From contig JAOUIA010000013.1 of NCBI GenBank assembly GCA_029884335.1, positions 1 to 64,000 on the forward strand: a DNA stretch of 64,000 bases, read 5' to 3'. The stretch's first letter is position 1, and each line of letters begins with the position of its first letter. The stretch comes from Betaproteobacteria bacterium (lineage in GTDB: Bacteria; Pseudomonadota; Gammaproteobacteria; Burkholderiales; Casimicrobiaceae). The notes below the pieces were generated by a model. The model was not told where the DNA came from and ran no database searches. It saw nothing but the letters and a program-made list of their open reading frames with translations. A program made the position numbers and the translations under genes. Shown in pieces: positions 49,363-55,763 of the stretch.

Positions 49363-51354
49363 TCAAGTCTTCAGCTCCTCGCGGTCGCGGAACTGCTCGA
49401 GCACCTCGGGATTCGCCAGCGCCTCGCGGTTGCGAACCTCGCGGCCGTGCACGATGTTGCGCACCGCGAGCTCGACGATCTTGCCGCTCTTGGTGCGCGG
49501 GATGTCGTCGACCTGGAGGACCCTCGCCGGCACGTGCCGCGGCGTCGTGTTCGTGCGGATGTGCCTCTGGATGCGCTCGATCAGCGCGTCGTCCAGCACG
49601 AGCCCCTCGCGCAGCTTGACGAACAGCACCACGCGCACGTCGCCGGTCTCGCCCGGGGGCCAGTCCTGGCCGATGACGAGGCTCTCGACGACCTCGTCGA
49701 GCTGCTCGACCTGGCGGTAGATCTCCGCGGTGCCGATGCGCACGCCGCCGGGATTGAGCGTCGCGTCCGAGCGGCCGTAGATGATCACGCCGCCGTGCCC
49801 GGTGACCTCGATGTAGTCGCCGTGGCACCAGACGTTCGGAAAGCGCTCGAAGTACGCGGCGCGGTACTTGGCGCCGTCGGGGTCGTTCCAGAAGCCGATC
49901 GGCATCGACGGGAACGCCTTGGTGCACACGAGCTCGCCGCGCCGGCCGGTGCCGGGCGGGATCGCTGCGCCGTCCTCGTCGAACGCCTCGACGGCCATGC
50001 CGAGCCCGCGGCACTGGATCTCGCCGCGCCACACCGGCAGCGCCGGGTTGCCCAGCACGAAGCAGCTGACGATGTCGGTGCCGCCCGAGATCGACGAGAG
50101 GCAGACGTCGTGCTTCACCGCCTCGTAGACGTAGTCGAAGCTCTCGGGGGCGAGCGGGCTGCCGGTCGAGAACACGGCCCTCAGGGCCGGCAGCGCGTAG
50201 TCCTTCACGGGCACCAGCGCGACCTTGCGCAGCGAGTCGATGTACTTGGCCGAGGTGCCGAAGTGCGTCATCCGCTCGGCCTCGGCCAGCTCCCACAGCA
50301 CGCGCCCGTGCATCGTGAACGGCGAGCCGTCGAACAGCAGCAGCGTCGCCTGCGAGGCGAGCCCGGAGACGAGCCAGTTCCACATCATCCACCCGCAGGT
50401 GGTGAAGTAGAACAGCCGGTCGCCGGGGCGCACGTCGCCGTGCAGCCGGTGCTCCTTGAGGTGCTGGAGCAACGCGCCGCCGGCGCCGTGCACGATGCAC
50501 TTCGGCACGCCGGTGGTGCCCGACGAGTAGAGGATGTACAGCGGGTGGCCGAACGGCAGTTCGGCGTACGCAATCGCCCCGGCGTCGAACGGCGCGACGA
50601 ACGCCTCCCACGTCGAGCCGCCGCGCAGCGGAGGGAACTCGTTGGCGCCGCCCACGTCGCCGAGGTAGGGCACGACGACGACGCGCTCAACCGTGGGCAG
50701 CCGCTCGACGATCTCCGCCACCTTGTCGAGGATCGCGATCGGCTTGCCGTTGTACCAGTAGCCGTCGACCGTGAACAGCACGCGCGGGGCGATCTGGCCG
50801 AAGCGGTCGATCACGCCCTGCACGCCGAAGTCCGGCGAGCACGACGAGAAGATGCAGCCCTTCGCCGCCGCGCCGAGGAACGCGACGATCGTCTCGGGCA
50901 GGTTCGGCATGTAGGCGGCCACGCGGTCGCCGGCGGCGAGCCCGTGCGCGGAAAGCGCGGCGGCGACGCGCGCGACGCCCTGGCGCAGCTCGGCGTGCGA
51001 CAGCCGGCGGCGCACCTTGTCCTCGCCCCAGAACACCAGCGCGTCGCCGCTGTCGTCGGCACGACGCCGCTCCAGCAGGTTGCGCGCGTAGTTGAGCTTC
51101 GCGTCGGGGAACCACTGCGCTCCGGGCATCCGGTCGCCGTCGACGAGCACGCGCTCGCCGCGCGTCCCGATGACTCCGCCGTCGTCCCAGACTTCCCGCC
51201 AGAACGCCTCGCGCTTGTCGATCGACCAGCGCCACAGCGACTCGTAGTCCGGCAGGTGCACGCCGTGGCGCGCCTCGACGCGCCGCGCGAATGCCGTGAC
51301 CTGCGCCGCGGCGATGCGCGCCGGCGACGGTTCCCAGAGCCTGGAGGTGGTCAT
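49363..51354 (-). CDS. aacS: Acetoacetyl-CoA synthetase
   Basis: AMP-forming ligase that activates acetoacetate. ACS-family N-domain ([19 protein letters not shown]-like [16 protein letters not shown]), P-loop [44 protein letters not shown], and the C-terminal lysine in [14 protein letters not shown]. The 663 residues and the GMMMWN-like [24 protein letters not shown] region are typical of acetoacetyl-CoA rather than acetyl-CoA synthetases. It probably serves ketone-body or polyhydroxybutyrate metabolism. A hairpin repeat lies upstream. Confidence 0.92.
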
Positions 51355-51559: not shown

Positions 51560-51988
51560 TCACGAAGACGCGGCAAGCGCACGCAGCGGGCCCGCGACCG
51601 CCTCGGGCAGCGGCGTGGGCCTGCCGGTGGCGAGGTCGATCCAGACGATCTTCGCCGACCCTTCGGCGTGGCAGATGCCGTCCTTCCGGATCTCATAGTG
51701 GCTGCCCACGCTCGATCGCCCCGGCCCCGCGAGGAACATGCGCACCTCGATGTCTCCGGGGTAGACGAGCGGGACCTGGAACGTGCAGCTCGCGTTGACG
51801 ATCACCGGGCCCGTCGAGCCTTCCGCGTAGCCGCCGCGCGCGCCGATCGCGTAGAACCACTCGATGCGCGTCTGCTCCATGTAGCGGAAGTACACGGTGT
51901 TGTTGACGTGGCCCATCATGTCCATGTCGCCCCAGCGGATCGACTGGATCGACGTGTGCACGAGCAGGCGCGGAGCGTGCGCCGTCAC
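51560..51988 (-). CDS. Acyl-CoA thioesterase, hotdog fold
   Basis: 142-residue 4-hydroxybenzoyl-CoA-type thioesterase. The active-site segment SIRWGDMDMMGHVNNTVYFRYMEQTRIEWF has the Asp and HVNN pattern of the group. GTG start at 51988; the upstream EtfD-like stop overlaps it (GTGA), so the two proteins are translationally coupled. It may hydrolyse a CoA ester linked to the electron-transfer flavoprotein pathway. Confidence 0.88.
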   Translation of the reverse strand: MTAHAPRLLVHTSIQSIRWGDMDMMGHVNNTVYFRYMEQTRIEWFYAIGARGGYAEGSTGPVIVNASCTFQVPLVYPGDIEVRMFLAGPGRSSVGSHYEIRKDGICHAEGSAKIVWIDLATGRPTPLPEAVAGPLRALAASS

Positions 51989-54024
51989 GGCCCGGCCTCC
52001 GCGCTCGCGGCCGGGGCGGACAGCGCGGCCGCCACCAGCTCCGCGACGTCCTGGACGCGGACGTCGGCGTCGCGTCCGACCGCCGCGAGGCCGTCGGTGA
52101 GCATCAGCGCGCAGTACGGGCAGCCGGTGGCGATGACGGCCGGATTCGCGGCGAGCGCCTGCTCGGTGCGCAACACGTTGATGCGCGTGCCGATGGTCTC
52201 CTCCAGCCACATGCGGCCGCCGCCGGCGCCGCAGCACATCGCCCTGGCGCGCGAAAGCGGCAGGTCGGCGAGCGGCGTGCGGCTGACGCGCGCGAGCACC
52301 TCGCGCGGCGCGTCGTACTCGCCGTTGTGGCGACCGAGGTAGCACGGGTCGTGGAACACCACGCGCTCGTGCCGCGCCTGCACCGGCAGGCGCCCCTCCT
52401 CCATCAGCTGCCGGATGAGCTGCGTGTGGTGCACGACCTTCCAGTTCCCGCCGAACGCCGGGTACTCGTTCGCGAGCGCGTTGAACGCGTGCGGGTCGGT
52501 GGTGACGATGCGCTCGACGCCGAGCCCGTTGAGCGTTGCGACCAGCTGCTCGGCGAGCGGCTGGAACAGCATCTCGTTGCCCAGGCGCCGCACGGCCTCG
52601 CCGGTGGTCGGCTCGCCGGACCCCAGGATCGCGAAGCGCACGCCGGCCGCCTGCAGCACGCGGGCGAAGGCCTCGGCGATGCGTCGCGCGCGCGGGTCGT
52701 ACGAGGTCGCCGAGCCCACGTACCACAGCCAGTCGAGCCGCGCGACCTCCTCCGCCGTCGACGCGATCGCCACGCCGGCGGCTTGCGCCCACTCGCCGCG
52801 CGCCTGCACCGGCAGCCCCCACGGGTTGCCCTGCGACTCGTAGGCGTCGAACACCGGCTTGAGCTCGTGCGGGAACGCGCCTTCCATCATCACGCGCTGC
52901 TGGCGCAGGCGGTAGAAGCGCGGCAGGTGCTCGAGGCCGATCGGGCACGCCTCCTCGCAGTAGCCGCAGGTCGTGCACGCCCACAGCGCGTCCTCGCCGA
53001 TCACGCCGGGGACGAGCGCGGGCAGCGCGTCCTCCCCGCCCTTCGCCGGCTTCGCGAGCAGCGCCGCGCGCTGCGCGAGCAGGTGGTGCTTGAGGCCGTC
53101 GTTGACCCACTTGTGCGCGAGCGGCTTGCCGGTGAGGAACGTCGGGCACGCGTCCTTGCAGCGGCCGCACTCGGTGCAGGTGAACGCGTCGAGCGCCTCC
53201 TTCCACGAGAGGTCGCGCGCTGTGCGCGCGCCGACGGCAACCTCCTCGCCGTCGGCGGCGTTCATGACCTTCTCCATGTCCACCGCGGGCACCGCGCACG
53301 CCGGGCGGACGCGGGCGAAGAACAGCACCGGAAGCGCGGTGACAATGTGGAAATGCTCGCCGACCGGCAGCAGCACGAGGAACGCCAGCACGGTCAGCAT
53401 CTGCAGCCAGTAGCTCGCGTGGTAGCCCGCCGCGAGCGCGTCCGGGGACAGGCCGGAGAACCACGCGGCCGCCAGGCGGCCTACCGGCGCGGCTGCGGCC
53501 TCGTGCGCGATGCCGGCGTCTGTCGCGGCAAAGCGCGCGAAGCGGAAGCCGTCGAAAGCGAAGTCCGTGACCATGATCGCCGCGATCAGCGACAGGATCA
53601 GGATCGCTTCCCGGTTCGGCTCGAGCCGCGCCGGCTTCACGACGAAGCGGCGCCAGAACGCGTAGCCGACGGCGACGAGCACGGCCAGCTCGACGTAGTC
53701 CTTCAGCGTGGCGAACGCGGCGCCCGCCGCGCCGGGGTAGACGAACGGCTCGTGGTAGCCGATCGCGATCAGCTGCACCTTGCGCGCGAGCAGGACCATG
53801 AACCCGCCGAAGATCACCGCGTGCATGATCCCCGGCCTGCGGTCGCCGCGAATCATCCTCGACTGCAGGAAGCCGTCCACGAGGAGGCGGCGCAGCCGCC
53901 GGAGCGGCGCATCCCAGCGCACTTCCGGCGCGAGGCTGGCGACGATGGCGAGCTTGCGCCACGCGAGGGCCGCAAAGCCGGCGAACGCGATGGCAAGGGC
54001 GATGGTGATGCCGGCCGGGCTCAT
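51985..54024 (-). CDS. EtfD-like membrane Fe-S protein with first CCG motif lost
   Basis: Membrane iron-sulfur protein of the EtfD/heterodisulfide-reductase-like group, which passes electrons from ETF to the quinone pool. Residues 1-240 hold about five to six helices (NarI-like). Two 4Fe-4S motifs follow: Cys283/286/289/293 and Cys350/353/356/360. The second CCG motif is intact (Cys561, Cys597, Cys598, Cys635, Cys638). The first CCG is not: VGS(438), EPTTGE(473) and TDPHA(510-513) replace the usual VGC, ETCTGD and TCPHC. The start at 54024 ([10 protein letters not shown]) gives 679 residues. It is divergent from the ETF-QO gene with 71 bases between. Confidence 0.87.
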
Positions 54025-54095: not shown

Positions 54096-55763
54096 ATGAG
54101 CGAAGTCGCGGCGCGCGAAGCGATGGAGTACGACGTGGTGGTCGTGGGCGGCGGGCCCGCGGGCCTCGCGGCGGCGATCCGCCTGAAGCAGCTTGCCGCC
54201 GCGTCCGGGCGCGAGGCGTCGGTCTGCCTGCTCGAGAAGGGTTCGGAGATCGGCGCGCACGTCATCTCCGGCGCGGTGATCGACCCGCGCGGCCTCGGCG
54301 AGCTGTTCCCCGACTGGAAGGAGCGCGGCGCGCCGCTCGACACGCCGGTGCGCGAGGACCGCTTCCTGCTGCTCACCGCCGACAGGGCGTGGCGGATTCC
54401 CAACGGCCTGTTGCCGCCGCTGATGGACAACCACGGCAACTACATCGGAAGCCTCGGCAACCTGTGCCGCTGGCTCGGCGCGCAGGCCGAGTCGCTCGGC
54501 GTCGAGATCTATCCCGGTTTCGCCGCCGCGGAGGTGCTCTACGACGACGATGGCGCGGTGATGGGCGTCGCCACCGGCGACGTCGGCATTGCCCGGGACG
54601 GCGCGCACAAGCCGGGCTTCCAGCGCGGCATGGAGCTGCACGCGAAGTACACGCTGTTTGCCGAGGGGGCGCGCGGATCGCTGTCGCAGCTCGTGATGGC
54701 GAAGTACAACCTGCGCGACGGCGTCGACCCGCAGAAGTACGGCATCGGCATCAAGGAGCTGTGGGAAGTCGCCGCCGGCCGCCACCACCCCGGGCTCGTG
54801 ATCCACAGCCAGGGCTGGCCGCTTGCCAACGACGCCGGCGGCGGCTCGTTCCTCTACCACTACGGCGAGCGCCTCGTATCGGTCGGCTTCGTCGTGCATC
54901 TCAACTACGCGAACCCGCACCTCTCGCCGTTCGACGAGATGCAGCGGTTCAAGACGCACCCTGCGCTTCGCGACACGTTCGCGGGCGGCAAGCGCCTTGC
55001 CTACGGCGCTCGCGCGATCAACGAAGGGGGCCTGCAGTCGGTGCCGAAGCTCGCCTTCCCCGGCGGCGCGCTGTGCGGCTGCTCGGCCGGCTTCGTCAAC
55101 CTGCCGCGCATCAAGGGGAGCCACAACGCGATCAAGACCGGCATGCTCGCCGCCGAGGCCGCGTTCGCGGCGCTGGGCGAGAACCGCGCGCGCGACACGC
55201 TGTCGGCGTACGAGGACGCGTGGCGCGGCTCGTGGGTCTACGAGGACCTCTACAAGGTCCGCAACGTCAAGCCGGGCCTCGACCGCGGGCTGTGGTACGG
55301 CACGCTGCACGGCGGCGCGCACATGTGGCTCAACGACGTCGGCCTGGGCGGGCTGGTGCCGTGGACGCTTCGCCACAAGGGCCCGGACCACGAGACGCTG
55401 AGGCCCGCGTCCGAGATGCCGCGCATCGACTACCCGAAGCCCGACGGCACGCTCACGTTCGACCGCCTCTCGTCGGTGTACCTGTCCAACACGAGCCACG
55501 AGGAGGACCAGCCGGCGCACCTCGCGCTGCGCGACGCCGCGATCCCCGTGGCGGTCAACCTCGCGCGCTACGACGGCCCCGAGTCGCGCTATTGCCCCGC
55601 CGGCGTCTACGAGTTCGTCGACGCCGAGGGCGGCGGCCGGCGGCTGCAGATCAACGCCGCCAATTGCGTGCACTGCAAGACCTGCGACATCAAGGATCCG
55701 AGGCAGAACATCCGCTGGGTCGCGCCGGAGGGCGGCGGGGGGCCGAACTACCCGGGGATGTAG
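54096..55763 (+). CDS. Electron transfer flavoprotein-ubiquinone oxidoreductase (ETF-QO)
   Basis: Takes electrons from reduced ETF and gives them to ubiquinone. The FAD site [21 protein letters not shown] (about 11-31), [39 protein letters not shown], and the C-terminal 4Fe-4S ligands in [10 protein letters not shown] and [12 protein letters not shown] are intact. 555 residues, the standard length. No etfAB gene is in the window. It lies back to back with a second kind of ETF-to-quinone protein. Confidence 0.96.

Follow-up and report, generated by a model that had tools for sequence, protein, structure and literature searches.

A D1-less EtfD-like membrane protein of Burkholderiales: replacement of the first CCG cluster ligands with the remaining cofactor ligands retained

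The window analysed here, a 64-kb stretch of DNA, carries a gene for an EtfD-like membrane protein followed by genes for a thioesterase-like protein and an acetoacetate-CoA ligase (Table 1). The last 4 bases of the EtfD-like gene (51985-51988) are shared with the thioesterase gene, which starts with GTG, and the order of the three genes, which probably form one operon, is retained in two related loci (L032 and L038). On its other side, the EtfD-like gene lies head-to-head with a gene for a classical ETF-ubiquinone oxidoreductase (ETF-QO), an arrangement common to the window, L003/L032, L004 and L038. The FAD domain and the Fer4_ETF_QO domain of the classical enzyme were both found by Pfam in this neighbour and neither was found in the 679-aa protein, where a single CCG domain, the second, was recognised together with Fer4 modules. 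The first CCG domain was not detected by Pfam CCG.

Table 1. Features of the EtfD-like gene, its product and its neighbours (positions in the window)
Feature	Position	Strand	Basis or remark
EtfD-like membrane ETF:quinone oxidoreductase, D1-less subtype	51985..54024	-	679 aa; translation without internal stop
Membrane heme b domain, residues 1-240	53305..54024	-	EtfD alignment; predicted long helices
Heme ligand His68 = EtfD His78	53821-53823	-	alignment
Heme ligand His226 = EtfD His241	53347-53349	-	alignment
Two 4Fe-4S cubane motifs, Cys283/286/289/293 and Cys350/353/356/360, complete	52945..53178	-	Pfam, alignment
First CCG domain, residues 430-540, D1 ligands replaced, fold retained	52405..52737	-	alignment, predicted structure
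Ser438 (TCG), D1 ligand position 1 = EtfD Cys503	52711..52713	-	alignment, codon
Thr473 (ACC), D1 ligand position 2 = EtfD Cys538	52606..52608	-	alignment, codon
Asp510 (GAC), D1 ligand position 3 = EtfD Cys581	52495..52497	-	alignment, codon
His512 (CAC) = EtfD His583, cluster D2 ligand, retained	52489..52491	-	alignment
Ala513 (GCG), D1 ligand position 4 = EtfD Cys584	52486..52488	-	alignment, codon
Second CCG domain, D2 ligands Cys561/597/598/635/638 complete	52090..52371	-	Pfam CCG 4.8e-22
4HBT_2 thioesterase-like protein	51560..51988	-	PF13279 6.9e-22
Acetoacetate-CoA ligase	49363..51354	-	TIGR01217 over cut-off
Classical ETF-QO, divergent neighbour	54096..55763	+	PF05187 and PF21162 over cut-off

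The best match among PDB sequences was EtfD of M. smegmatis (9ojn; phmmer, 8.4e-108). An AlphaFold2 model computed with 23 relatives had a mean pLDDT of 88 and a pTM of 0.85, and in Foldseek 9ojn was far ahead of the other matches (E 5.4e-40, TM 0.89/0.82, query value 0.89), the next ones being LutA and HdrB; the predicted fold follows EtfD along the full length of the protein. As in EtfD (Rv0338c in M. tuberculosis), a heme b membrane domain, two cubanes and two CCG domains lie on the same single chain, and the ligands of D2, D3, D4 and heme are identical in both proteins. However, the four D1 cysteines of EtfD are all replaced in the window protein, and the 30 kDa disordered C-terminal tail of EtfD is missing. 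The first CCG domain was predicted as a complete alpha/beta unit. The CCG-domain fold is also shared with HdrB/HdrD (5odc_B, TM by target 0.61), but Hdr has two catalytic noncubane clusters, whereas the window protein has lost one site; of the two CCG motifs with five cysteines each that mark HdrB/HdrD, the first has no cysteine here, and D2 has a histidine where Hdr has a bridging cysteine.

It has been shown that Cys503, Cys538, Cys581 and Cys584 of EtfD are ligands of a linear [3Fe-4S] cluster, D1, and that His583 is a ligand of D2 (PMC13083937). In an alignment of 148 rows, Ser438, Thr473, Asp510 and Ala513 fall on these four cysteines of the M. smegmatis protein, in agreement with the codons, so that the replacements listed in a first-pass annotation of the sequence were borne out and the protein falls outside the mycobacterial subtype with a linear [3Fe-4S] D1. 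The second CCG motif and both 4Fe-4S motifs, described there as complete, are so in the alignment as well: D2 keeps five cysteines (561, 597, 598, 635 and 638, all encoded by TGC) plus His512, and all the ligands of heme b and of both cubane clusters are retained. With no D1 cysteines, and with D2 and its histidine kept, the protein is a D1-less EtfD homologue. The annotation had stated that every ligand of the first motif was lost, which is right for the four D1 cysteines but not for the D2 ligand His512. This residue sits between Asp510 and Ala513 inside TDPHA, and its equivalent is kept in every complete aligned sequence; judging from the alignment, D2 still draws a ligand, His512, from the motif in which D1 was lost. 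Since the 14 cysteines of the protein are all accounted for (eight cubane ligands, five D2 ligands and Cys243, which adjoins the membrane part), none is spare to replace the lost D1 ligands, nor do CCG-1 cysteines of homologues align elsewhere in the protein, as the annotation had considered.

The clade to which the window protein belongs comprises 25 rows, with 23 distinct sequences, from Burkholderiales including Rubrivivax and Aquincola. The pattern S-[STA]-D-A is uniform across the clade, except for one fragment that stops short of position 510; relatives with the same replacements reach down to about 60% identity, and one isolate genome, that of Rubrivivax sp. A210 (L043), is among them. 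The dN/dS of the first CCG domain was 0.04-0.39 (Nei-Gojobori, eight pairs), a range like that of the other domains, and the domain is maintained under purifying selection. Clade-wide conservation and purifying selection exclude chance or sequencing error and sustain the view, already put forward from the window alone, of a coordinated loss of a whole site and not random decay. In the complete alignment, no D1 cysteine was present in 65 of the 148 rows, all four in 75, three in five and one in one, the other two being fragments. The loss of D1 is thus nearly all-or-none, and the premise that members of this family carry two cluster-binding CCG motifs does not hold. In D1-complete homologues of other Burkholderiales (L085, L086, L088, L089, L092, L093 and L094), the first motif reads C-H-G and not C-T-G or C-C-G; by analogy with His583 for D2, this histidine could complete a noncubane [4Fe-4S] D1.

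Two other groups without D1 cysteines, FadF and DgcB, have been published, and for them direct entry of electrons at D2 was argued; FadF is tied to beta-oxidation and DgcB to dimethylglycine catabolism (PMC13083937). Literature on FadF, DgcB and EMO yielded little beyond that paper. In our alignment, the rows of FadF type and DgcB type were named by similarity and context, the named reference sequences themselves not being among the rows. Plasmid records of Bacilli supplied all three rows of FadF type (Priestia L130, Niallia L138 and Paenibacillus L137), which represent a D1-less S-N-D-A type and, like the window protein, retain the histidine. DgcB of Pseudomonas and relatives, also D1-less with a complete D2, reads D-P-H-[SVA] across D1 positions 3 and 4 and has a one-residue gap in its first motif. 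The window clade is therefore a further independent example of a loss that was already known, and the subfamily with one CCG cluster proposed in the first-pass annotation is supported by the clade but is not new.

In a 60-row tree from which the motif columns had been left out, the clade of the window protein was sister to D1-complete proteins of SAR324 and Desulfobacula (support 100/98). Both fell with Myxococcota in one group, and a larger mixture-model tree agreed on this placement. Such a tree of sequences with and without D1 cysteines had been suggested beforehand, and it sets a D1-less clade against a D1-complete sister group. The sister proteins (L050-L053; 40-42% identity) have all four D1 cysteines and etfBA directly upstream, whereas the window protein has neither. 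Four changes of D1 state are required by parsimony. In AU tests under LG+G4 and with the present sampling, a single D1-less clade was rejected (p-AU 4.5e-5), as were groupings of the window clade with FadF (7e-5), with DgcB (3.7e-4) and with an alphaproteobacterial/haloarchaeal D1-less group (4.9e-4), and those of FadF with DgcB (3.6e-4) and with the alphaproteobacterial/haloarchaeal group (0.014). With D1-complete deltaproteobacterial/SAR324 proteins surrounding the window clade in the tree, these tests support, under this model and sampling, at least three independent losses of D1 as read from the sequences. The lower bound is three and not the four of parsimony, since a grouping of DgcB with the alphaproteobacterial/haloarchaeal proteins is compatible with the data (p-AU 0.31).

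At the third D1 position, Asp followed by Pro-His was found in each of the 64 rows without D1 cysteines that extend to the motif and in none of the 75 D1-complete rows; C-P-H-C has become D-P-H-[ASV] in each D1-less lineage, and the change from Cys to Asp takes two base changes. Among about 410 columns of the soluble domains, only column 510 has a consensus residue that the four D1-less groups share and that never occurs in the complete ones, a tracking of D1 loss whose significance is suggestive only, as it was found after looking. We would tentatively propose, somewhat short of calling it probable, that the loss of D1 follows a repeatable route, that the aspartate has a selected role and that D-P-H marks electron entry at D2. 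If true, the aspartate might, for instance, tune or orient the D2 histidine or neutralise the emptied pocket. The Paenibacillus FadF-type protein (L137:2870-5056) retains one D1 cysteine, in Ser-Asn-Cys-Thr, and may be an intermediate of D1 loss. In some D1-less homologues of Pseudomonadota (L111, L132, L090, L091 and L096, an Agrobacterium plasmid copy included), Asp also replaces the fifth D2 cysteine (EtfD Cys712).

With respect to donor and acceptor, a single etfBA pair is encoded in the window genome, on a different contig; in L038, etfBA and ETF-QO lie on one 14 kb locus, and ETF-QO was present in eight of the eight clade genomes tested. Neither menD nor MqnA was over cut-off in the window genome or in seven clade genomes, and ubiquinone is therefore the likely acceptor. 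For the same reason, menaquinone, considered on account of a menA match, was rejected as acceptor, and the match is probably another UbiA-family enzyme. The host thus differs from mycobacteria with EtfD in the lack of menD and MqnA over cut-off and in having ETF-QO as well. The neighbours of the clade genes vary (MtrABC-type cytochromes, nqrA, MenA, a D-lactate-dehydrogenase-like gene), so that context does not fix the donor. In two Rubrivivax relatives (L036:1776-14006 and L041:1885-14033), the D1-less gene lies inside an MtrABC-type cluster with DmsE/MtrA-like decaheme, NapC/NrfH-like, MtrB/PioB and OmcA/MtrC genes, pointing to a connection with extracellular electron transfer in these organisms. 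MenA adjoins the clade gene in Rubrivivax sp. A210 (L043:4839-5825), and in L047 (525-5335 and 8144-9559) the clade gene lies between nqrA and genes that by eye are nuoLMN-like.

Which EtfD cluster is the first to accept electrons from ETF has been called open (PMC13083937). The cofactors of EtfD are spaced 7-9 Å apart, with D2 and D3 at about 8 Å, and from the modelled ETF flavin the distances to D1 (12.5 Å) and to D2 (about 11.6 Å) are nearly the same (PMC13083937). With these distances, D1 is unnecessary for a continuous wire. We consider it likely that the window protein is a single-chain, D1-less EtfD in which electrons, most likely from reduced ETF, would enter directly at the noncubane [4Fe-4S] D2, pass through the two cubane clusters (D3 and D4) to heme b and reach a quinone of the membrane, in this host probably ubiquinone. 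What remains of the first CCG domain would be a folded scaffold without a cluster that gives D2 its ligand His512 and probably contributes to the surface on which the donor docks. This would be the path of EtfD minus its outer cluster, for which the earlier term "distinct electron path" was too strong.

The choice of ETF as donor relies on the genomic etfBA pair and the divergent ETF-QO neighbour. Against it, many D1-complete homologues have etf genes beside them but the EtfD-like gene of the window does not, and the ETF-QO of the host offers a route from ETF to quinone that does not need the EtfD-like protein. A changed partner would also explain the loss of D1 if the protein had been recruited to a non-ETF donor, such as another flavodehydrogenase, or to a reverse, quinol-oxidising branch. 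That the host keeps ETF-QO, that most clade members have no etfAB beside the gene, and that decaheme MtrA/DmsE, NapC/NrfH, MtrB and MtrC genes accompany it in L036 and L041 would fit such a recruitment. However, the gene has ETF-QO as its head-to-head partner in the window, L003/L032, L004 and L038, acyl-CoA type genes lie downstream, and DgcB, although D1-less, keeps an adjoining ETF-alpha type gene in nearly all loci, which the window does not have. We therefore regard a change of donor as unlikely.

Asp and Ser are able to ligate iron in some Fe-S proteins, and Asp recurs at the third position in all D1-less lineages, with Ser, Thr, Asn or Asp at others; the first CCG domain might then still hold, for example, a 2Fe or 3Fe centre through Asp510, Ser438 and Thr473. 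Yet the fourth position is taken by Ala, Val or Ser, no cysteine remains, and position 2 varies between Ser, Thr and Ala within the clade, unlike a ligand, which makes such a centre very improbable. A decaying protein or an assembly error, for which nothing speaks except that several relatives are metagenome bins, is refuted by the same kind of residues in the 23 distinct relatives, the isolate among them, by purifying selection and by the conservation of all other ligands, and hardly any weight is left to it. The D1-less EtfD with entry at D2 thus remains the reading that we prefer.

To what was known, the present analysis adds an independent D1-less clade, the retention of the D2 histidine, a count of the losses and an aspartate that recurs at one position. 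The comparison of several natural, independent losses of D1, in proteins that keep the other cofactors, provides good evidence for a dispensable D1 and for D2 as the working entry point. Moreover, a D1-less EtfD can coexist with a classical ETF-QO in organisms that apparently use ubiquinone, in which the protein probably supplies respiration with electrons from oxidations of the fatty-acid type.
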